This document shows positions 8,623-24,278 of a DNA stretch of 64,000 nt, piece by piece. The translations under genes were made by a program, and so were the position numbers. Location of the stretch: contig CP114120.1 of assembly GCA_029959195.1 (NCBI GenBank), positions 2,480,001 to 2,544,000 of the forward strand, in the 5' to 3' direction. The number at the start of each line of letters is the position of its first letter. The stretch's first letter is position 1. Under the pieces are notes generated by a model, which ran no database searches, was not told the origin of the DNA, and was given only the letters and a program-made list of their open reading frames with translations. Source of the stretch: Dictyophora rubrovolvata. Its lineage: Eukaryota > Basidiomycota > Agaricomycetes > Phallales > Phallaceae.

Positions 8623-9342
8623 GGGGCCTCTTGACCTTTTACCATGATCATCTACTGATTAGGTCATACTGAATCATACCAAAGAGAGAAAAAACCCAGT
8701 ACATGGATGCAAACTCTTATAGGGCACAAGCCTGTGAATACTGCAAACCATACATTCTAGCTCAATGCTGCCCCCTATCCAATCCAAAACATGACTAAAA
8801 TGTCTAATAAATAAAAACCACACCACAACACCTAAAACCCACCTACCCCAGAAACGACAGGCCACATAAGCCCCGTTGAACACCCAACCGCAACCCAAAT
8901 ACCCTGTTACTACTACATCCAACCCTTGCAACTACTTCCAATGCCAATACTAGGAGACCATACCCGACCCTGCAGAAACTGATAGATCCTGCTAGAACAT
9001 AAAGTATGTGTTACACCTAGAATACATATAAACCCACACACTAAACCACAACTTGTCGTGAACCCACCGTCTATGTAGACTGACAAGCCAGACACAATCA
9101 CATCTCTGGGTGACCCCCCTTGATCACCCTCCTCTGATACTAACCAAAACAACAAGCACACCCAAACTACTGCCCCTTTGTCCTCCAAAAAATAAAGGAC
9201 ATATACCCCACCCACACTCCGAAATATACCCAAAGCCCAAAGAAAGCCTGAACCTACCAACAACCCCTTGACCCCTCCCGGTCCCTCGATCCTCCCCACT
9301 GCAACATTCACCATTAGAATCCCCTCGTTTACCTACCCTACA

Positions 9343-10292
9343 ATGACTACCCCCTTCTATATCCCGAAAGATGTCGTGGCCACCCTACTCTCCATTCCAC
9401 CTGGAGGGTTTCCCGAAATTACCGGCATCTATGAGCATGACCTTCTTAGTGTTATACATCCAGCACAGCTCAAGGAATGGAATGCACTCCCATACCACAA
9501 AATTTATACTTTCTTCACATACGACTCGACCACGTGTAACACCGTACCCCAGATGACCCTTCTCAGATCCCTCCTTGACCTCCTCCTCCTGGATAGCCAC
9601 ACCACTAAAGTCGTGCAATCCTGCACTGTAGAAAAGATAATTAGAGGTCAACAGGCCTTCCCATACCTCATATACAACCTTGAAGAAGACATAGTAGATG
9701 CCCTCACCAACAGAGGATGCTGGGAATTCTCAGAAGGTACCTTCTTCACTTTTAAATCAAACTTTGCACCATCTAACTTCATTGTGGCCTTGGAAAACAT
9801 TCTGTACCCTACCTCCCCCCAAAACGACACGCTGGTCCGCATGGCCATGATAAACAGCATCAGGAAGTCCCTGTCCATTATGTCATTTATCTATTACAAC
9901 TACGACAACTTCAACATCATAGAGGACGAATCCCCTCATAACACAGTCCTCAATACCCTACGTGTATCTAGTATCACGGATGGAGAGTTAACCATCTATT
10001 ACATCTATATCAACCCACCCATGTCAAACTGCCAAACCTATGAAAACTGGCTCAACAAACTCAGTATGTACAAATGGTACAGTGTAATAGCTGGAGGAGA
10101 AGTTATGAAGAAAATAATCTGCAACGTATGTAAATCCTATGACCACAGATCTGTTCAATGCCCCTATACACAACTCAACAGATGGCCACTCAACCACCCT
10201 TTGCACAAATGACCAACCCTCCAACACACGGAAGAGGCTTTGGCCGAGGTGGCAGAGCAAGAGCCAGAGGATGGGGTGCTGCGACATCCTAA
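9343..10292 (+). pseudogene. LINE ORF1, nucleic-acid-binding protein with zinc knuckle, frameshifted near its end
   Basis: ORF1 of the LINE reads openly from the ATG at 9343 (MTTPFYIPK) for about 290 residues to 10212. It ends in a CX2CX4HX4C zinc knuckle (CNVCKSYDHRSVQC), which is typical of ORF1 proteins that coat LINE RNA. Just after the knuckle, near 10165-10185, the better frame changes: another frame gives QMATQPPFAQMTNPP and then an RGG-like tail GRGFGRGGRARARGWG, ending at 10292. A small indel there is the simplest explanation. An ATG-less extension upstream of 9343 is open but unsupported. The low-complexity antisense frames across this region are shadows. Confidence 0.72.
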
Positions 10293-10896
10293 AAAATCTC
10301 CCAAGCTAATTCCCAATTAAACCCCCTCAAAAAGTAGTACAATTAACCACCTCTCCCATAAATCATAAAAATAAAAAATTATGTCCCTTATGCTAGAAAC
10401 TGCCTACATAGATTAGCTAAAATATACAGTTTTGTTACACAAAACAAGCACAGCGCATGAAAACATACCCAAAAAGAGCAGAAAATAATCCACTCTTCCA
10501 GTGTCAACTGGTTAAAACCGACAACCCGCCTCCCCTTTTCTATCAATATGAGTACACAACAAAGAGATATACACACACATTTATACAGTTATGACATATC
10601 CTTGGTTCCTGGCCCAGCCTCCAGCCACCAAAGGGCTACAGAGTTGACAGTCGCTCACATCCCGGATGTAGTGGCTAGAGGGGTAGACTGTAGTCCCCAG
10701 AGGGGCAATCATGCCCTCCAGCACCCCCGACCTGAGGGTAGTGCTAATGGTGAAACTCCCTCAGGCAGTCGGTGTCACGCACCAAAATCTTCCTAATAAG
10801 GAAACATTCCGAATTTTGGTTCAAAGCGGAGTTTCAAACTACCAAAAACTTAACCGATACACCACAGTCTCTTGAAATCAAAACCCTTACAAAAAA

Positions 10897-11496
10897 ATGG
10901 CCGCATTTTCATTTCACTATACATCATCAATTTCTTTGCCCATTCCAGCATCTCCCACTGAGTCATTACCCCCCTCCGACGATGAATCTATATCACCTTT
11001 TCGTTTTTCGCCTTCCAGTCCAAGGACATACGATTTGGATCTGCATACGACTCTTTATATCTATAGTTCCCAATATGCGAGTCTCGACATCGATGAAGAA
11101 ACGTACCTCCCGAAGTTCCCTCCACCTCTTATTATTCGTCAATGCAGAAGTTCGGATTTGGTTCACCCCGGTCTCATGTTTGGAGAAAAGGTTTATATCG
11201 AGGAACAATTAGACTGGTTTACAATTATTAACATTTATTCTACACCCGAATCAGCCGTTAAAGACTCATATCGGATTTGGTTAGTGACACAAGAAGGGTT
11301 CGAATTTACATTCCTGGTTCTAGATGTGCCAAGTCATTGGGTTGTCATGAAAAACATAAAAACACAAAAACATAGCCCATATAGACCAGCCAATCTTGTT
11401 CCTGTAGATCCTCAAATGTCTCGTTTTTCACCCCATTCGCCAGAACCAATATCTCTCCCCTCTTCTCCATCCAAACGATCCTTCCGAAAGATCTGA
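10897..11496 (+). other. LTR-internal reading frame 1, 199 residues, unknown function
   Basis: The frame lies in the sense direction of the LTR and is repeated intact in the other LTR at 20320-20919 (minus). It opens MAAFSFHYTSS, has a Ser/Pro-rich first quarter, then a folded-looking core of beta-type and aromatic sequence (FGEKVYIEEQLDWFTIINIY, then FEFTFLVLDVPSHW) and a Ser/Pro-rich basic tail. No known domain is recognised. The core resembles that of the next frame, suggesting a duplicated domain. It could be an accessory protein of the retroelement or a captured host exon. Treated as part of a fossil element. Confidence 0.5.
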
Positions 11497-11802
11497 CGTG
11501 TTTGCTCAAACCTTCTTGGACGAAATTAGGACAAAAGGCTTGATTAGGATAAGCGATTAGATTTGTATTTCATCTCCTTCTTTCTTTCTGGACATTTCAT
11601 TAGCGCTTAAAAATTTTGGTTAACTCATATCATCATGTCGGACAATAATGATACTCCTACTTCCCCTATTCCCCTTTTTCAACTCCCTTTCTTCCCTTTT
11701 GAATATCGTTCTTCTCTCAGATTCGGACCCAACCCTAATTTCCTCTCATGACTTCGCGTTTACAATACTCTTGTTTCTGAAATTGATGTCGACCCCTCCA
11801 CA

Positions 11803-12201
11803 ATGCTTCTGATTACTCCACAGCCACTAATGGAGATTACTATTCCTTATGACGATCTGGAGATAGGATATCCACGAGCTTTAACCCTGTACGAACGAAC
11901 CAACGTCAATGTCATGGACGAATCATATGAGTTTGTCGAGTTCCTTTCAACAAATCGTCAAGAAGAATCAATCTGGAGACTGGTCTTTCGTCATCAATTT
12001 CGAAGTTATACTCAATTCTTATTCATAGACGCACCCCTATCTGCCATCCCATCCCCTCCCGACTACTCTGTTGGAAATCAAACCCTCCCTTCCTATTCCG
12101 ATCTCCAATCCAATCTCGTTGAAGATCTGGTATTGTTAAGCGTTGCCATAGCCATTATTATTGCACCACAGCCACGAAGAAGAAGATCTCGTCAACAATA
12201 A
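11803..12201 (+). other. LTR-internal reading frame 2, related to frame 1, unknown function
   Basis: This second sense-direction frame in the same LTR has its mirror copy at 19615-20013 (minus). Its core (LTLYERTNVNVMDESYEFVE, then YTQFLFIDAPLSAIP) lines up with frame 1 in order and spacing: a Pro-Gly-type turn, a Y/GE-x-V strand, a WRLVF or RIWLV strand, and a FLV/FI-D-x-P ending. The tail is basic (RRRRSRQQ). Related sequence also continues upstream of the ATG used here. Function unknown. Confidence 0.42.
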
Positions 12202-13026
12202 CCAGATCAGTAAGAAGTTTGGGATGGTAAGATTATAGTTTTGGGTAAGAGGTAGCGCGAGAAGTGCCAGATGGTGATTTTGGTAAAGCTATGCTGGGAA
12301 TCCGGTTTCATCGTCTTCTTTTGATCTCTTTTTGTTTCTCTTTTTGTTTCAACATATTTCTCCTATTCCCCCTAACCACATATGCGATTCCCCTTTTTCT
12401 GTAATTGTATCCTCCATCGTTTTCTCCTTTTTCTTTTGTTTCTTTGTTCTCTTTTTGTTTCCTTTTGTTATCATGGCGAATGATGAGTGATCATTCTGCT
12501 TTCCTTTATGTTTCCAAATGGTATATATACTGCATGTAAATAATTGTAACAGCAGCAATCTACCGGAATGGTTGTCTCAAGTTTAGTTCAGTTTAAGTCA
12601 AGTTCAAGTCAAGTTTCGTCTCTAGTCTATTTCTACGCTCACGTCTATTTCTTTGGATTACTCTGAGTGAGGCCTCGGAGTATAAACTCAACAATTCGTA
12701 TTGTCGTTGAAGCCTTACTAACTTTAAACAGATTATCATCGCTGTATTATCGACGGCGTATTGACTCACCATTTTATCACAACTCACATTTGTCGTCCCC
12801 CTCACACACACACGATCTTAGGATCATCATTTTTTTGTTGTTGTTGGTTTTATATCGACACACACACACTCACTAAATATCATATTATTCCCCCACCCTC
12901 CTCCTTACGAAATTAGCACCAGGACCCGCTCCACGGAGACTAGACGGCCTCAAACAAAATATCTTCGTAGTTTTTCCGATTGTATATATAGCTACGACAT
13001 TTAGCTATTATCTTCGGATCGTTACA

Positions 13027-16000
13027 TCGGGCCATTTCGAAATATTGCCTCGACATGACTTGATTAATGCTTCTCGGATCGTGAAATGTCCTCGTTCTAC
13101 AACTCCATTGGCTTGGGAATTGTAAGGCGAAATACGAATCTGCTTGATATTGTAACGTCGCATAAGTTCTTCGGTGGCAGCTTTGGTCTCGGATCCATTA
13201 TCGGTAACAATTTCTTCAATGATGCCATATCGACAGATAAGTTCCTCAAAGATAAACTGGGCTACAGAGCGTGCTGTGGCTTTCTTGAGTTTGCGTCCTT
13301 CAGCGGCTCCAGATAAATCATCTCGTGCTGCAATAACATAGCGATAGCCTTGTGCAGGAGTCATGAGCATAATGTCAAGGTAGACTTTAGTGAAAAGCGA
13401 GGTCAGATGGGATATAGTGATGGGTATATGCATCTTGATGGTAGATCGGAGTTGGCAGGGGTGACAAGAACGACAAAATTCGTGAACTTCCTCTCGAATC
13501 GTTGGCCAGTAGTATCGTAGTGAAATGTGGCAGTATGTCGCAAATCCTCCTCGGTGTCCTAAATCGTCGTGGGCCATCTTGAGTAATGTCTTCCTGTGAT
13601 CTCTATCTAAAATTACACGTAAATGATGAAGGGGGTGCTTTTTGAAAAATAATTCGTTCTGAATAAAGAATTTTTGTGATTTTCGAATGAAACTTTTCTT
13701 ATGTGAAGAGGAATCAAAATGAGGCAAAATAAAATGGGAGAGAAATTGAAAAATGTGGTGGAGCTGCTTGTCATCTATGCGTTTGCTTTTAATTATGAGT
13801 AGCCACCCTGAACTTAAATTTAAAGTCTGAGAACAGGAAAAGGAATAAGAAAGAAAAAGAGGGATATCTGTGTTTTTAGGTTTTTCTTCGTCGTCACTTT
13901 CGCTCTTCTGAGCATCTTCTTCATTCCAATCTTCGGGTAATGGTGGTCGTCGGGATAATGCATCTGGTCCTTTATGCGATTCTGCGGGTACATGCTTCAA
14001 CTGAAAATGATATAGTAATATTCCTTCGATCCATCGGTTAAGCGTAGCGTTGGGAGCGATGTCTGGATTGTTAATCATTGATTTGATATAGGATGCATCG
14101 ACTTCGACGACAAAATTGAGGAGACCTGCAATGTAATATCGGCAGGCTTTAAGGGCGCGATATAATCCATATAATTCGAGTTTTGCTTGACTATACTTTG
14201 CTTCGGTGTGAGAAATGGGGAGAGATCCAAAACGAACAGGTCTTCTTCGGCCTTCAGAGTCCATCTGGTACAAAATAAATCCAATCGCAATGACAGAAGT
14301 GTCGACAGCAAGGATGACTGGATACGGTGAGGAATAATCAATAGGGACAAGTGCGGGAGAATTAATGATTTCGTTTTTCAAGTCTTCAAATGCGGCTTGT
14401 CGAGCTGATGTCCATTCAAAGGGTACTTCTTTTCGAACTAGTTCTGAGAGCGGTCGTGATCGTGCAGAATAATTCTTGATCCATATGCGCATCGTTCCGC
14501 AAAGTCCTAAGAATTGACGAACTTGAGTGACTGTAGTCGGAGGCGGCCATGTCTTGATCTTCTTGACGCGTTTCTCATCAGGTAATCATCCTGTGTAGCT
14601 TAGTTTTTGTCCAATAAGTACAATCTCGGGCTGCGCTATCTTTGACTTCTTCGGAGAGATGGTGGCACCGGCATGATTAAGTCTGTGAAGAATGCGATGA
14701 ACATCAACTGCGTGTTCCCATATGAAACGTCGGATTCCTGAATTCTGAGGAAGAACTTCAAAAGTTCCATTGGCTTGCTCATAGTGTGTATGCGGTCCTT
14801 GGATTCCAACATCATCTATCATAACACTAGCTTTAGTCGGGAACTCGGGTTGCAAGATAAATGAAGTGCAATTTTGAAATTCAGCGACGGAATTTGTGAA
14901 TCCCTGAGGGAGGACGGTGGATCGCAAAAGTCCTAAAGGCGTGTGGAATGAGGTAAGGTCTCGACTCTTGACATGTATTTTGCGTGCATCATATCCTGAT
15001 AATAGATCGAAACTGGAATAAACTGAGGCACCTGTGAATGGTTCCAACATCTCATCTGTATTTGGAGGCATTCCTGCATCTCGAATCGTGACTGAATTAA
15101 GGGGCTGATGGTCAATGATCTGGCGAATTCCTCCGTCTGTCTTCTTAATGAAAAACATAGCGGTTCTGTAGGATGCTTGACTATATTCGTACACTCCGAT
15201 ATCAAGTTTCTTTTTCAGCGCATCGATGACTTGGACTCGAATTCCAGGTGGAACGGGAATCGGTTTCTTCATCCATGGAATATGTTGCACAACAGGGATA
15301 ATATAATCGGAAAAATAGTCTGATCGCAGAGTTCCTCGTTCGGTTTCATCAAATGCAAGTACGGCTTCATTTCGCTGGAAGACGGATATGAATAACTTCT
15401 CTTCTTCAGGCCAGAGAAAACCTGAATCGTTTATGCGGAGTATGCGGAGACGTTCAGCGGTGAGTTTGGAAGTAGGAGTAAATGTCGGAGGAAAAGGGGA
15501 TAAAGGGGAAAGGGAAATGAGGGGATCTTCGGGGATTTTTCTCGTCACAAGACAATCTTGAGGAAGAATCGCTGGTACAGGTCGAATCTTCTTGTCGACC
15601 GTCTTGTATGCGGCAAGAAACTCGGAGAATTGGGGATAATACTGGGGGTTTTCTTCATAATGTTTTAGGAGTAGCCTATAAATAAAGTGGTTGGGTATAA
15701 ATCTCGGGTCATCGTCGGGTTCATAAATAGGAAGGGAAATAAATAGAGAGATAGGGAAACGAATATTATAAGGGTCCGTGAAAAATGAATCTACGTCTAA
15801 GGAAGGTCGGGTGCTTTCTTCTTTAATGATTCTTGATCTATCTTTTCGTAAGCTTGGTTTTCCAGTTGAAAATTTTCTCGGTATTGTCGGTACAGGTCTT
15901 TAACATCTCGAGATGGTACTGCATTTATCGACCATTCTATCTTTCCAGTAGGTCCTTTCTTGACTAAATGTGTTCCTGCAGAGAGCTCGTGAATTTCAAT

Positions 16001-18789
16001 CCGATTTAAACGCATCCAAGGTCGTCCTAGAATTATCCCTTGTGGGAGCGATGGAGATTTCCAAAGTTCTTCTGCCATAGTCCATAGATTGGTTCCTACA
16101 AACAAATCCACTTCATGAGCTCGTTCGTAAAGCAATGTTTCATGACTGGAAGCGTCTTTCATAATCTTCGGAGTTCCGGTCGTGTATACTATTCCAGTAA
16201 GGTTTGCGCTACTCTCCTTGATGCAATTGATAGTTGATCCTGAATCTACAAGTGCTTCGATTTCACAACCATTGTTAAATTGAACTGGTAAGACGATGAG
16301 TCTGGCATCCTCAGGATGATAACTGGTGATTTGTTCGTCCTTTATGATATAATCTTGGCAAACACTCATAATCTGGGCTTCCTCTCGGGTAGGACGAAGT
16401 CAGGTGATCAATAATTTACTGAGTGAGGGCGCGACTGCAAATACTTCACGAATCGTGAGTCCTGCATTCTGATCCAACAAACGGTTAAGGACATTGTCAA
16501 TAACAACTTCTCGTTCAAAAGAATTGCGGAATTTCTTGACAAGTTCCGTAGGTTCTGATTCGGGTTTCTCCTTAGTGATAATAGCCTTAGGGGTCGCTGG
16601 ACGGTGTATTGTTTTCTTAGCAATGGTGGGTACTGGGTCTTGCATTTTTACGTCAGTGATCTCTTCTCCTCGTAAAGGAAAGGGAATATTTGTAACTTTC
16701 GGAGCTGGAGCCGCGATAGGATTAGGGACTGGGAAGTGACTTGGCACAGGAACAGGGAATTGAATAGGTGCCTGAGGACGTAAGGCTGGAGGTAAACTCA
16801 TTGGATTAGGCAATATGGATGTCGGTTGCGGTACAGGTGCTGGAATTGGATGTGTAGGCGGGGGTGCTGATGTCGTAGGAGGAATTGTAACAGGTATAGA
16901 AGGGTTAGCGGATTTCTTGGTTATCTCTACTCCATCAAATCTCAATCTCTTCGGATAAGGAGTTGCGCGAACAGATTCCTTTCCCTTCGTCTCCTTGGTT
17001 CGGACAAGTGGGTATGCTTCAACGTTTCCATATTCGCTACTAACATTGCTATTAACTACTCCACATACATCATAGTATTCATCGTCATTCAATATAATCT
17101 CCTCCTCGTCTCTACCATACGCATTGACAGATGAAAAATTGTTGATAGTGTCAGGTAAAGTGATGGGGAAAGGAAGTGAATTAATGGTAGGAGCGAGGAT
17201 GGCAGTTGTGGCAACGGGTATTCGTTGGACATCGAGTTGGCGATTGATAGCAGCCAAAAGGGATTCGCCATTGAAACAGGCAATTGACTTTCCGGTACTC
17301 GTCCAGACATACTTGTTTTCAGTGTTAACAGTGATGTATCCTTGTTCCATAAGCGACGAGGTGTGTGGGCAGCGGTGCATTGTATGCCCAGATTCATCGC
17401 AGAAATAGCAAACAACATTAGTGGGGGCGACAGTATTGCTGAGAGTGCATTGACGGGGAATGGGGGGATTTTGTACAGGGATAGGAATGGAAGGAGGCAT
17501 AGACGAAGTAGGGGGGGGCATATTGATTAGGGTAAGCAAGACGGGGGCGAGTGAAGGGGACAAGGTAGCAATACGGTGATACGTGGTGAGGATCGAGGAG
17601 TAATCACGGAGCGTCAACTTCTTGTTGAAATCTTTGATAAGCTCATCGATCTCGTCCGTATTGTCCTTCGTTATACGATTGTTTCCATTGGTATGGCCTC
17701 CTGTCTGTGGCGGTGGTGGTGACGACAGTGTAGGCAGCGGTGGCATTGACAACGAGATTGGTAAAGGTGGTTCACTAGCAGGATGATTATTAGGAGGCTG
17801 ATGAGGGAGCATACCACGATCAGTGGAATGGCGAGGGTCTCGACCATGATGAGAGGATGCTTTTCTTGTCTTTCTTGACTTCCTCTTGTTACGCTTTTTA
17901 TAATCATTCTCCTCATCTGAACTTTCGTACCAATCAGACTCGCTTTTGCTTTCTGATCCTGAACTAGAATAGTCGGAATCGGATAGTGTGGCAGTCTTTC
18001 CATATCTGTCCATCTTGTGCTGTTGATCATATCGCTTCGGATTCAATAAGAATTCTATGACCTTTTGAATGTCTTCTTTCTCATAAGGAGTTTCTGCGTC
18101 ATGATTTGGAAACTTCGTAGTCAAATAAACTTCGCATCGCGTCTTGAGATTTTTGGGAATCCCATCCCAAAACCGTAGGTTATACTTCTTTCGGTCGATC
18201 ATTCCATCTTTGAGTAGTTTTCCTCCTATCAAATCGTATTTCCGAATGTATTTATTGAAATCGTACAGGTTCCTGATCTTGCTTTTATTTTGCTTTTCGA
18301 CATACTGGGTTAGACTCTCTTCTGTATAGCGCTTATGATCCTTGGGAGCGCCATATACATTGCGAATATAGGTGGCGAACGTGGTCCAGTTACGTTTGTT
18401 GTAAGTAGGGTGATTCTCCATATGTTCTCTAACTGGTTTTGAGACATATTGTACAATTCGTTTGAGTTTTTCGTCGTCGCTTAGTTTGTAGACTCTGCAT
18501 AGATCTTCGAATTGATCAAGAAAGGATTTGACCTCAGTCGGCTTGCCCTTAAACGTCCTAGGAGCGCGTCTAGATCTTGGCAGTGGAAATTCTAATTTAG
18601 CGACATCAGTCATTTTGATATCTTTGGCAGCATGGAGATCGGAGGTAGGCATATCGGGATGATGTAGTCAAGGAAATAAGATGTGGAGTGGATGAGAATG
18701 GGAATAACGGAGCTGGTAGGTGACGTGATGATATATGCGGGTGTATGTGAAAACAGCTAGACTAGTGGCCTCACTGGGGCAGCCACTTT
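13027..18789 (-). mobile_element. Body of a Ty3/gypsy-type LTR retrotransposon fossil (gag, protease, RT, RNase H, integrase)
   Basis: Minus-strand body between two inverted LTRs. Parts in order from right to left are: Gag (about 18652-16400) with a CCHC knuckle (CYFCDESGHTMHRC) after a Lys-rich and Pro-rich region; an aspartic protease (about 16369-15797) with the DSGST motif; reverse transcriptase (about 15548-14586); and RNase H plus integrase (about 14492-13027) with an HHCC zinc region and a D,D,E-type core. Domain order RT-RH-IN marks it as Ty3/gypsy rather than Copia. The element is broken, with roughly three or four breaks, and its two LTRs do not have the normal same-direction arrangement. 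The near-identical LTR copies suggest a young age. Confidence 0.88.
16400..18652 (-). other. Gag part of the Ty3/gypsy-type fossil
   Basis: A 750-residue frame that starts soon after the right LTR. The first 200 residues form the capsid-like region of fungal gypsy Gags (FKGKPTEVKSFLDQFEDLCR and following). A charged Ser/Lys stretch, Pro-rich linkers and a CX2CX4HX4C knuckle (CYFCDESGHTMHRC) follow. A second long Pro-rich linker leads toward the protease. It is recognised by the position next to the LTR, the knuckle and the following protease. Part of a fossil element. Confidence 0.75.
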
Positions 18790-21043
18790 TGTAACGATCC
18801 GAAGATAATAGCTAAATGTCGTAGCTATATATACAATCGGAAAAACTACGAAGATATTTTGTTTGAGGCCGTCTAGTCTCCGTGGAGCGGGTCCTGGTGC
18901 TAATTTCGTAAGGAGGAGGGTGGGGGAATAATATGATATTTAGTGAGTGTGTGTGTGTCGATATAAAACCAACAACAACAAAAAAATGATGATCCTAAGA
19001 TCGTGTGTGTGTGAGGGGGACGACAAATGTGAGTTGTGATAAAATGGTGAGTCAATACGCCGTCGATAATACAGCGATGATAATCTGTTTAAAGTTAGTA
19101 AGGCTTCAACGACAATACGAATTGTTGAGTTTATACTCCGAGGCCTCACTCAGAGTAATCCAAAGAAATAGACGTGAGCGTAGAAATAGACTAGAGACGA
19201 AACTTGACTTGAACTTGACTTAAACTGAACTAAACTTGAGACAACCATTCCGGTAGATTGCTGCTGTTACAATTATTTACATGCAGTATATATACCATTT
19301 GGAAACATAAAGGAAAGCAGAATGATCACTCATCATTCGCCATGATAACAAAAGGAAACAAAAAGAGAACAAAGAAACAAAAGAAAAAGGAGAAAACGAT
19401 GGAGGATACAATTACAGAAAAAGGGGAATCGCATATGTGGTTAGGGGGAATAGGAGAAATATGTTGAAACAAAAAGAGAAACAAAAAGAGATCAAAAGAA
19501 GACGATGAAACCGGATTCCCAGCATAGCTTTACCAAAATCACCATCTGGCACTTCTCGCGCTACCTCTTACCCAAAACTATAATCTTACCATCCCAAACT
19601 TCTTACTGATCTGGTTATTGTTGACGAGATCTTCTTCTTCGTGGCTGTGGTGCAATAATAATGGCTATGGCAACGCTTAACAATACCAGATCTTCAACGA
19701 GATTGGATTGGAGATCGGAATAGGAAGGGAGGGTTTGATTTCCAACAGAGTAGTCGGGAGGGGATGGGATGGCAGATAGGGGTGCGTCTATGAATAAGAA
19801 TTGAGTATAACTTCGAAATTGATGACGAAAGACCAGTCTCCAGATTGATTCTTCTTGACGATTTGTTGAAAGGAACTCGACAAACTCATATGATTCGTCC
19901 ATGACATTGACGTTGGTTCGTTCGTACAGGGTTAAAGCTCGTGGATATCCTATCTCCAGATCGTCATAAGGAATAGTAATCTCCATTAGTGGCTGTGGAG
20001 TAATCAGAAGCATTGTGGAGGGGTCGACATCAATTTCAGAAACAAGAGTATTGTAAACGCGAAGTCATGAGAGGAAATTAGGGTTGGGTCCGAATCTGAG
20101 AGAAGAACGATATTCAAAAGGGAAGAAAGGGAGTTGAAAAAGGGGAATAGGGGAAGTAGGAGTATCATTATTGTCCGACATGATGATATGAGTTAACCAA
20201 AATTTTTAAGCGCTAATGAAATGTCCAGAAAGAAAGAAGGAGATGAAATACAAATCTAATCGCTTATCCTAATCAAGCCTTTTGTCCTAATTTCGTCCAA
20301 GAAGGTTTGAGCAAACACGTCAGATCTTTCGGAAGGATCGTTTGGATGGAGAAGAGGGGAGAGATATTGGTTCTGGCGAATGGGGTGAAAAACGAGACAT
20401 TTGAGGATCTACAGGAACAAGATTGGCTGGTCTATATGGGCTATGTTTTTGTGTTTTTATGTTTTTCATGACAACCCAATGACTTGGCACATCTAGAACC
20501 AGGAATGTAAATTCGAACCCTTCTTGTGTCACTAACCAAATCCGATATGAGTCTTTAACGGCTGATTCGGGTGTAGAATAAATGTTAATAATTGTAAACC
20601 AGTCTAATTGTTCCTCGATATAAACCTTTTCTCCAAACATGAGACCGGGGTGAACCAAATCCGAACTTCTGCATTGACGAATAATAAGAGGTGGAGGGAA
20701 CTTCGGGAGGTACGTTTCTTCATCGATGTCGAGACTCGCATATTGGGAACTATAGATATAAAGAGTCGTATGCAGATCCAAATCGTATGTCCTTGGACTG
20801 GAAGGCGAAAAACGAAAAGGTGATATAGATTCATCGTCGGAGGGGGGTAATGACTCAGTGGGAGATGCTGGAATGGGCAAAGAAATTGATGATGTATAGT
20901 GAAATGAAAATGCGGCCATTTTTTTGTAAGGGTTTTGATTTCAAGAGACTGTGGTGTATCGGTTAAGTTTTTGGTAGTTTGAAACTCCGCTTTGAACCAA
21001 AATTCGGAATGTTTCCTTATTAGGAAGATTTTGGTGCGCGACA
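18790..21043 (-). repeat. Right LTR (2254 bp) of the Ty3/gypsy-type fossil, minus orientation
   Basis: Reverse complement of 10773-13026: read on the minus strand it starts TGTCGCGCACC and ends GATCGTTACA. It is the upstream LTR of the minus-strand gag-pol body. It carries the mirror copies of the two LTR reading frames (20320-20919 and 19615-20013). The bases just outside the two LTRs (AGTCGG on the left, CCGCGC on the right) do not make an obvious 4-6 base target duplication, which fits a rearranged rather than simple insertion. Confidence 0.85.
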
Positions 21044-21582
21044 CCGCGCTCTACGACATTACGGTGACATTTGTATCATCATTAAATACGATTATTAACG
21101 TTTATATATTCATCACCAATACCTGAGAATCGGTACTTAATAACTTCCCTGTCTCACTATAATTTTCCCTGATCCACTATTATTCATTCACTTTCTTTTT
21201 AAGTAATTTCTTATCTTTCACATGATGTTTCTCTTACTAATGTTTGGAGCTATTTGTACTTGCTCAAGGTGTATAAATAGGGGCTTATTTTTCTTATAAA
21301 TAATCTATCTTGTAACTACTGTTGTACACCAAAGTGCTTACCAATCAAATTGGTCTTTTTCCCTCTTATCTTTCTCTATTCTCAAGGACTTAGTAATAAG
21401 TCTCTATCTATCTCTACTAATTTGAATTTAATTCTTAAGTTCAAATCTCCCTTCAAGTGTCTCACCTTCAATAACAGGACTTTTAGTTGCTGAATAATCC
21501 CTAAACAAAACTCTTTTTATATTTTATTAGAAGCTAAGTCTATTCTAAATCTAAAACAAATCCTTTACACCCATTATCATGC
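21044..21582 (+). other. Unassigned LTR-like segment between the gypsy fossil and the LINE remnant
   Basis: About 540 bases unlike LINE coding sequence. It is AT-rich, has a TATA-like box (GGTGTATAAATAGGGGC near 21270), and shows an LTR-style end (CAATAACA near 21474) followed by non-coding sequence before LINE reverse transcriptase resumes at about 21583. It may be the 3' part of an LTR from another retroelement, brought in by the rearrangement that turned the gypsy LTRs. No second copy was found in the window. Confidence 0.35.
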
Positions 21583-24278
21583 CTACTTTTCAACATTGCC
21601 ATAGAATCACTCACAGCTACACTACGCACATTCAACCTTGAAGGCTATAATATCTCTGGTACTGATGAAAAACTGATTGCCAGCCTCTTTGTGGATGATA
21701 CTACAGTATACCTATCAGAAAACGATAACTTTAATACACTCAAAAACACCCTAAAAAATTGGTGCCAAGCATCCAGCATGAAATTTAACCTTTCAAAAAC
21801 GAGTATCCTACCCATTGGAACAAAAGCCTTCAGAGAAGCATTTATAAGAGATAGGAGAGTGAACGAAACTCACATGACTATTCCAGAAAATATTCCAATC
21901 ATCCCAGACCAAACGCCAGTACGAATACTCAGGTGCTTCATAGAAAATGGAATTGACCAGATCCCAATATGGGAACCTACATTATAAAAAATAAGAGAAT
22001 CCCTAGACCGGTGAGACAAAGGCCACCCCACACTCAAAGGTAGATGACTAATTGTAAGCATGGAAATTGGCAGCCGCATACAATACCTAACAAGAGTACA
22101 AGGGATGCCTCAAGAAATAAGTATCCGAGTCAAAAATATAATCAGAAACTTCATATGAGGAGAGAATAAAAACCCACCGGTTAGTCTAGACATAATGTCC
22201 CTAGACACCAACAAAGGTAGAAGAAAAGTCCTAGACATTGAGATCAGGAATGAAGCTATTGAATTAATGAAACTCCAACATTACCTAAGCACTGACCAAA
22301 ACAGACCAGCATGGGCATATGTAGCCGATATTCTCCTAGTAAAAAACACAAGAGACAATATCAAATTAGATAAATTCCCAAAAAATAATAAATCACCTAA
22401 TACCTTTCTATAATCATGGCGAGTATTAACAACCAGAAAGAAAAATACACTCTCAGAGTCACTCAAATACATGATAAAAACCACCCTAAAACATAGGACA
22501 GCCTTCAACGCCCTTGAAATACATACAAACCTAAAACTCCAGATACCTGCTTGGTTCCACCCCAGAATCCCAGCAGGAGAAATAAACTGGGGTGACAAGG
22601 CATACACATGCCTAAAAAAGAACCACAAAGCCTGTTCAACCGAAGAGATGCTAAGAATAGCAAACGCGACCTTCCCACAAAACCACACTAGAATAGGGAG
22701 ATGTAACTGCCCCCAATGCAACCAAGCCAGACTGATAAAATATACAAACCTGAATCTTTGCACCCATATGGCAAACCACATCATCCAAAAAATCCAACCA
22801 AAATAGAATCCAGCTGAACCTACAACAGAAAAATATATCACAGAACACATTCAAGCCACACCCCTGAACAATGGGAAATCAATCCAGACTTCGACTTATA
22901 AACATTCCAAGATGGCTTTAGAATCCTAACAAATCAATCATGACCCTATGTAATACCAGCAAAAAGAGAAATGACACATATTATAAATCACGTCAATGAA
23001 GTATACATTGACAGCTCGTGTGACAAAAACAGTAATGCAGAAGCCAAAGCAAGCAGTGGCATATGGTTCACCGCGAATAACAATAGGAATAGAGCCATCT
23101 TACTACCTAATAGATTTAACACTAATAATGCTGGGGAACTAATGGTAATTTTATATGCAACCCAAACCACTCCAAAGAATGAAACCTTTTAGATTTACAC
23201 AAACTCCCAATACTCTATAGACATGTTAATGACCAGACTACAATGCATCAAAGACAGTGGATGGTATGACATAAGAAATAGTGAAATTCTACAACCACTC
23301 GTCTTTAACCTACAGAACTGACAAGTGCCAACCATATTCACTAAAGTGAAAGCCCATGCAGGCATTGAAGGAAATGAAAAAGCAGATGAACTAGCCAAAC
23401 AAGGACTCACACTACCAGTACCTAGCCTACTCAACTTACAAATATCAGCAACCCACATACTACCCAGAATAAAACTCTCCACAGCAACACAATTACTGAT
23501 CTATAAATCCCTCATTGAAAAGAAAGGCTACAAACAAAGAGAATTAATGGAAAATAGACTAAGATTAATAATAGACAATGTTGAACTAATAATAAACGAA
23601 TGTCCCTCACCAGAAACAGTATGGAACTCCTTCAGGGACAAAACAATGTCAAAACAAATAAGTAACTTCCTATGGAAAAATACGCACAACGTCTACCATG
23701 TAGGAAGCTTCTGGTTAAATATACCAGCATATAACGACCACACATGGTGCCTGGAATGCACAGAGCTACAAGAGATGGAACACATTTTAACAAAATACAC
23801 AACACTACATGCTGAACAAATATGGATATTACCAAAAACAGTCTGGGAGAAGGCAGGCTTCACCTGGTATGAAATAAACCTGGATACGATCCTAGGATGC
23901 AATCTAATGAAATTCAACCTACCCAACGGAAAACCGAACATTGCAAAGAAAAGATTGTACACCATCCTTATATTTGAGATAGCCTACCTCATATGGAAAG
24001 CATGGTGTGAATGGAAGATAGGTAAAGAAGGGGATCCAGACCACAAACCCACCATCTCCATGTTTCAAAATAAGTGGATAGAAACCATACAAAGGAGAGT
24101 GACACACGATTTCATTCTTACAAATAAAAAGAAATATAAAAATAAAGCCTTAAAATATCATATAGTAAAGAACACCTGGTCTCAAATCCTAGGAAGCGTG
24201 AATGTAAGAACAATGATGTCGAAAGACATAAGAGGAGTTTTAGTGGGTAGCATAAATAGAAGACATCCTGTCTCATGA
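21583..24278 (+). pseudogene. LINE ORF2 3' part: reverse transcriptase end, Cys cluster and RNase H
   Basis: The fragment begins in the middle of the reverse transcriptase at LLFNIAIESL and continues to the catalytic LFVDDTTVYLSE (the YADD-type box). A connection zone has the Cys cluster CNCPQC typical of agaric LINEs. The RNase H domain follows: first Asp in VYIDSSCDKN, then a strand with GELMVILYA (Glu), and KVKAHAGIEGNEKADELAKQ with the last His/Asp region. A C-terminal domain with a CLEC motif runs to 24278. Several in-frame stops separate the open stretches (for example TAA at 21985, stops near 22413 and 22806, and TGA near 23321), so the protein cannot be made. The endonuclease and front of the RT are absent. 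Confidence 0.8.

Follow-up and report, generated by a model that had tools for sequence, protein, structure and literature searches.

Long terminal repeats (LTRs) are ordinarily regarded as non-coding, the betaretroviral sag gene being the best-known exception. The bel genes of foamy viruses are accessory genes at the 3' end which reach into the 3' LTR, and in this they are like the two genes described here, P1 and P2, although P1 and P2 have no Pfam match. The sag gene of MMTV is reported to lie mostly in U3, to occur for the most part in solo LTRs (490 of 527 contigs) and to have an omega of 0.289; it shares with P1 and P2 the placement of a protein gene in U3, the predominance of solo LTRs and purifying selection (PMC4667437). 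Here, in contrast, there are two paralogous genes in a fungal element of Ty3 order, and no superantigen role is implied. Neither P1 nor P2 has a significant match to a superantigen family in Pfam, hence there is no sign of homology to MMTV sag, which by the tests made is best regarded as the closest analogue in layout and not as a homologue.

Two further groups of elements are relevant. In crapaud of Podospora the LTR subfamilies differ mostly upstream of the TATA box, within U3, while sharing a conserved 3' half, and many solo LTRs are present; LTR lineages A and B described below likewise combine a divergent U3 with a conserved 3' half, but the available portion of the crapaud account mentions no U3 genes, whereas U3 is coding here (PMC10787394). 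Plant and bdelloid LTR retrotransposons carry additional ORFs, mostly of unknown function, and so resemble the present element in having genes besides gag-pol; those extra ORFs, however, are described as lying in or beside the internal region, whereas P1 and P2 lie within the LTR itself (PMC7264820, PMC5408684). Term searches of the PMC literature found no LTR-encoded gene in a fungus, which is weak evidence of novelty. On the basis of sequence comparison we propose that P1 and P2 are probably a duplicated accessory gene pair located in the LTR U3 of a retrotransposon family of Ty3 order.

The locus lies in a 64,000-nucleotide stretch of the genome of Dictyophora rubrovolvata (the window). It contains an inverted repeat with arms at 10770-13026 and 18790-21046, each 2,257 bp long and 5,763 bp apart. 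Within each arm an LTR unit of 2,254 bp runs from a TGT start to a TACA end, as read in both window copies. Matches to P1 and P2 in the genome fall into three LTR lineages (A, B and C), and both window units belong to lineage A. Their features, with the means by which they were established, are as follows.

10773-13026, plus strand: lineage-A LTR unit, plus copy, 2,254 bp, with the flanks of a solo LTR (inverted-arm search, ends, 4-bp flanks)
10897-11496, plus strand: P1 gene, 199 residues in the window (ORF scan, compared with fetched lineage-A copies)
11635-12201, plus strand: P2 gene, interrupted by a TGA at 11749-11751 and open from 11752 (ORF scan, fetched lineage-A copies)
12521-12559, plus strand: promoter-like block, a TATA box and the following stretch, marking the end of U3 (alignment of nine LTRs, step in A-B identity)
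18790-21043, minus strand: lineage-A LTR unit, minus copy, placed as 5' LTR before gag (inverted-arm search, ends, 4-bp flanks)
20320-20919, minus strand: P1 gene of the minus LTR (ORF scan and genome search)
19615-20181, minus strand: P2 gene of the minus copy, interrupted as in the plus copy and open over 19615-20064 (ORF scan)

A preliminary description of this DNA had taken the repeat unit for an LTR and the pair for the two LTRs of one element. The first part holds: the units of lineage A have TG...CA ends and short target duplications. The second is ruled out, since the arms are inverted and the plus copy has TCGG at either side, as in a solo LTR. The minus copy has no duplicated flank; its outer side reads GCGG, and its inner side reads AAAG, which is the gag leader. 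We compared the 4-bp flanks of 20 lineage-A copies with both ends present (18 fetched copies and the two in the window; L011 and L020, which have a cut end, were left out). The flanks are identical in 11 copies, agree at three of four bases in seven, at two in one (L013) and at one in one (the window minus copy), and in six of the seven copies with three matching bases the difference is CG versus TG or CA. A target site of the pattern NCGN fits these flanks. The target duplications (window and L009-L028) are centred on CG and their differences are mostly CG to TG or CA, perhaps reflecting integration at CG sites followed by CG decay, with methylation as a possible cause.

Inverted pairs of lineage-A LTRs a few kilobases apart are nearly identical. 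The plus and minus units of the window are 99.96% identical, and the two members of a pair at C7 1931858-1940686 score alike against the window, while other lineage-A copies are 96-98.5% like the window; we read this near-identity as gene conversion or a recent common source. Mirror-image matches on opposite strands were also seen near C1 887902, C10 1391585, C8 703631, C3 2864436 and C7 1560367, and point to large palindromes, the one on C1 being at least 24 kb across.

Between the two units lies a gag-pol region on the minus strand, with the following ORFs.

16400-18652, minus strand: gag-like ORF, 750 residues, with a weak zinc-knuckle match below the Pfam cut-off (ORF scan, Pfam)
15797-16369, minus strand: protease-like ORF, with aspartyl protease matches below the Pfam cut-offs (Pfam)
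14586-15548, minus strand: reverse transcriptase ORF (Pfam RVT_1, 6.8e-10)
13008-14492, minus strand: RNase H and integrase ORF, its frame overlapping the end of the plus LTR unit (RT_RNaseH_2, 3.6e-20; Integrase_H2C2, 8.7e-18; rve, 2.6e-9)

The gene order gag, protease, reverse transcriptase, RNase H, integrase is of the Ty3/gypsy type, the last three exceeding the Pfam cut-offs. The minus LTR is on the same strand and 137 bp from the gag ORF, in the place of a 5' LTR. No complete element in which two direct LTRs enclose gag-pol was found in the genome search, and the assignment to Ty3/gypsy is therefore based on the order of the genes and on the one 5' LTR. At 13008-13027 the integrase frame breaks off exactly at the plus LTR copy, which has TCGG on both sides, and no obvious continuation of integrase was seen by eye beyond the far side of that copy. 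The flanks of the element, also read by eye, hold a frame with a CCHC-like motif (9196-10212, plus strand) and a frame resembling a LINE reverse transcriptase (21538-21987, plus strand), and the element may have inserted in an older LINE.

The internal region is scarce in the genome, with one long copy, two decayed copies and one short match. In the C7 relic 11 bases separate the end of a sense B-type P1 fragment from the gag leader, which is on the same strand; the rest of the LTR is absent, and the relic is rearranged, with another internal piece upstream of the P1 fragment. The match in the C6 relic starts at internal position 1414. Two 5' junctions, that of the window and, imperfectly, that of the C7 relic, tie the LTRs to this family of gag. 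The presumed primer site, searched as a 15-base pattern, matches the genome in the window only. Adjacency to pol was considered as proof of LTR ownership and dropped. Strand counts for P1 and pol matches lying no more than 9 kb apart showed no clear association and were uninformative; 146 of the 151 P1 matches and 78 of the 89 pol matches entered these counts, after manual removal of rows that were incomplete or duplicated a place already listed.

In an alignment of nine LTRs from lineages A, B and C, all share the LTR tip and a TATA-like box followed by conserved sequence. In the window this block lies 320 bp past P2. P1 and P2 are both upstream of it and therefore, by the position of this predicted promoter block, are located in U3. 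Identity between lineages A and B in 150-base windows is 0.28-0.71 in U3 and rises to 0.87-0.98 at LTR position 1726 and beyond, and in lineage C only the promoter-like block is well conserved with A and B. Because the A-B identity steps up at the promoter-like block, we conclude that U3 as a unit was either exchanged or diverged, and on this comparison it behaves as a module. Neither the leader, where it would have supported a promoter of their own, nor the P1-P2 spacer has a shared motif above shuffled expectation.

The 2.2-kb unit could also be an independent non-autonomous TG...CA element which carries P1 and P2, is moved in trans by a retrotransposon integrase and adjoins gag by accident. 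Many copies do have duplicated 4-bp flanks while hardly any internal region is present in the genome, and the pol strand counts give no help in either direction. However, the minus copy lacks an inner duplicated flank and leads into gag, a TATA-like block with a conserved stretch stands where the end of U3 is expected, and a B-type fragment lies next to the same leader in the C7 relic. We consider this explanation unlikely, and we return to P1 and P2 as genes of a retrotransposon LTR.

Both genes belong to sizeable families. In a genome of 28 Mb we obtained at least 151 matches to P1 (150 of 206 candidates scored), at least 151 to P2 (150 of 175 scored) and at least 152 when a lineage-C P1 was the query (150 of 200 scored); the three sets overlap and all counts are lower bounds. 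Surroundings were inspected for about 30 P1 matches, 20 of lineage A and 10 of lineages B and C, the latter in a shorter form. Homologues are thus numerous inside long LTRs, as the preliminary description had expected of an LTR-encoded family, and P1 and P2 occur in many solo LTRs. Relative to the window P1, lineage-B matches are about 42-50% identical and lineage-C matches about 33-37%; between lineages identity is 26-47% for P1 and 26-32% for P2. In all three lineages P2 follows downstream of P1, with a spacer of 108 bp in an A copy and 146 bp in a C copy.

The frames of 199 and 132 residues described earlier for each repeat were found again as ORFs at 10897-11496 and 11803-12201, together with their minus-strand copies, that of the shorter frame at 19615-20013. 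Comparison with other copies extends both. P2 starts at the ATG at 11635, 168 bases upstream of the start of the shorter ORF. Among the 20 fetched lineage-A copies, P1 measures 210 residues from the first ATG in 12, the window P1 being short at 199, and P2 measures 188-192 residues in 13, the window P2 being broken by its TGA. Invariant columns among 15 sequences include F95-G96, W107-F108, R126-W128 and D143-P145-W148 in P1, and Y98-E99, W114, F118 and L129-F130-D132-A133-P134 in P2. The end of lineage-A P2 (12100-12201 in the window) consists of a hydrophobic stretch and an arginine run resembling a tail anchor, a feature absent from lineage C.

Database searches agree with the earlier statement that no domain is recognisable. 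No member of the P1 and P2 sets has a significant Pfam family (best E values 0.038 and 0.12, for one member each), no PHROGs profile is matched, and PDB chain sequences give no significant match (best E values 0.58 and 1.9). Among viral contigs 117 stretches fit a pattern, and none was confirmed as a relative of P1 or P2. Single-sequence structure models are poor (mean pLDDT 43.6 for P1 and 40.0 for P2) and show consecutive strands in each of the two cores. The kinship of the two cores, also proposed earlier, is weak by BLASTP, where the best match covers 27 residues with an E value of 0.017. Profile-profile comparison aligns 112 columns with an E value of 4e-4, the hhalign probability being only 34% with such shallow profiles; the score of 32.0 was reached by none of 200 column shuffles (maximum 23.8) and none of 200 shuffles of ten-column blocks (maximum 24.8). 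At the level of sequence profiles, P1 and P2 are thereby shown to be relatives of common origin, that is, a duplicated pair.

The origin of this pair could be sought in a captured host gene that was duplicated in U3 and whose products are now structural or packaging proteins, not regulators. The lack of similarity to known retroelement proteins and the beta-rich cores in the poor models would fit such an origin, but searches of the organism's own genome, with 150 candidates scored for each gene, recognised no host copy. We regard this possibility as less likely again than a non-autonomous unit. The preliminary description had offered a retained accessory protein and a captured host gene side by side; purifying selection and the many LTR homologues support the former; the 150 scored candidates and the roughly 30 surroundings yielded no evidence for the latter.

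The case for an accessory gene pair depends on how the two frames have been maintained. In 21 lineage-A LTRs (the window plus copy and 20 fetched copies) 9 stops fall in the P1 frame, whereas each of the five other frames has 142-281. The P2 frame holds 7, against 125-265 in the other frames, in 20 of these LTRs, counted by alignment position and with L027 left out for a frameshift in P2. Stop-free copies number 13 of 21 for P1 and 13 of 20 for P2, so open homologues, whose absence had been named as evidence against the family, do exist. The fetched copies were the best matches to the window P1-P2 stretch, a choice biased toward intact frames, and lineage-A copies are mutually 96-99% alike, because of which openness within A alone proves little.

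The between-lineage selection test is independent of this bias. Six pairs were fitted for P1, two within-C pairs being left out: the five between-lineage pairs give omega values of 0.130-0.210 (2dlnL of 17-52 relative to an omega of 1), and the one within-B pair gives 0.39 (2dlnL 11). For P2, with one B sequence shortened, omega is 0.165 for A-B, 0.018 and 0.019 for A-C, where the estimates are saturated, and 0.245 and 0.277 for B-C, with 2dlnL of 9.5-32 over the five between-lineage pairs. The ratio of synonymous to nonsynonymous change, suggested earlier as a check, is accordingly far from neutral for both genes, and codon constraint is seen in omega as well as in the stop counts by frame. 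By these estimates P1 and P2 are under purifying selection between lineages. An origin of the two frames as chance ORFs of a repeated sequence, for which the likeness of lineage-A copies leaves some room, is hardly credible; it is ruled out by between-lineage omega values far below 1, provided that the codon alignments are right, and is opposed by the stop counts.

Changes within lineage A behave differently. Private changes among the 21 copies fall on codon positions 1, 2 and 3 in numbers of 10, 11 and 10 in P1 and 16, 9 and 9 in P2. The lack of a third-position excess is expected if solo copies decay neutrally and selection acts on replicating lineages. Shared changes number 11, 4 and 17 at the three positions in P1 and 12, 4 and 11 in P2; most are CG to TG or CA (29 of 32 in P1, 25 of 27 in P2) and may be recurrent, for which reason we did not use them as evidence of selection. 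Indels within A number none in P1, none in the spacer, one in P2 and many in the flanks, a pattern given no weight because the copies were chosen by their match to the same stretch.

How might such a gene pair serve its element? P1 and P2 would be expressed as the last genes of the element RNA, through the copy in the 3' LTR, or from transcripts beginning within U3, and perhaps from solo LTRs too. The proteins would then act in trans for the element, and the likeliest target would be its own LTR promoter, or else silencing that they would counter, a role suggested by the position in U3 and by the modular divergence of U3. Once an LTR had become solo, its copies would decay neutrally. A regulatory step of this kind, at the LTR promoter or against silencing, is our best guess and a tentative one. 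It is possible, though doubtful at present, that a swappable paralogous pair in U3 regulates or protects its own promoter, in which case an intact solo LTR would be a free-standing locus for a trans-acting regulator.

If a conserved gene pair does reside in the U3 of a fungal Ty3-order element, the exception to the non-coding nature of LTRs would extend to another kingdom. Such a pair could also account for the divergence or exchange of U3 as a module, and P1 and P2 offer a protein family that lacks any known domain and is amenable to testing. Solo LTRs are usually annotated as inert; if the pair is real, they can hold intact genes.
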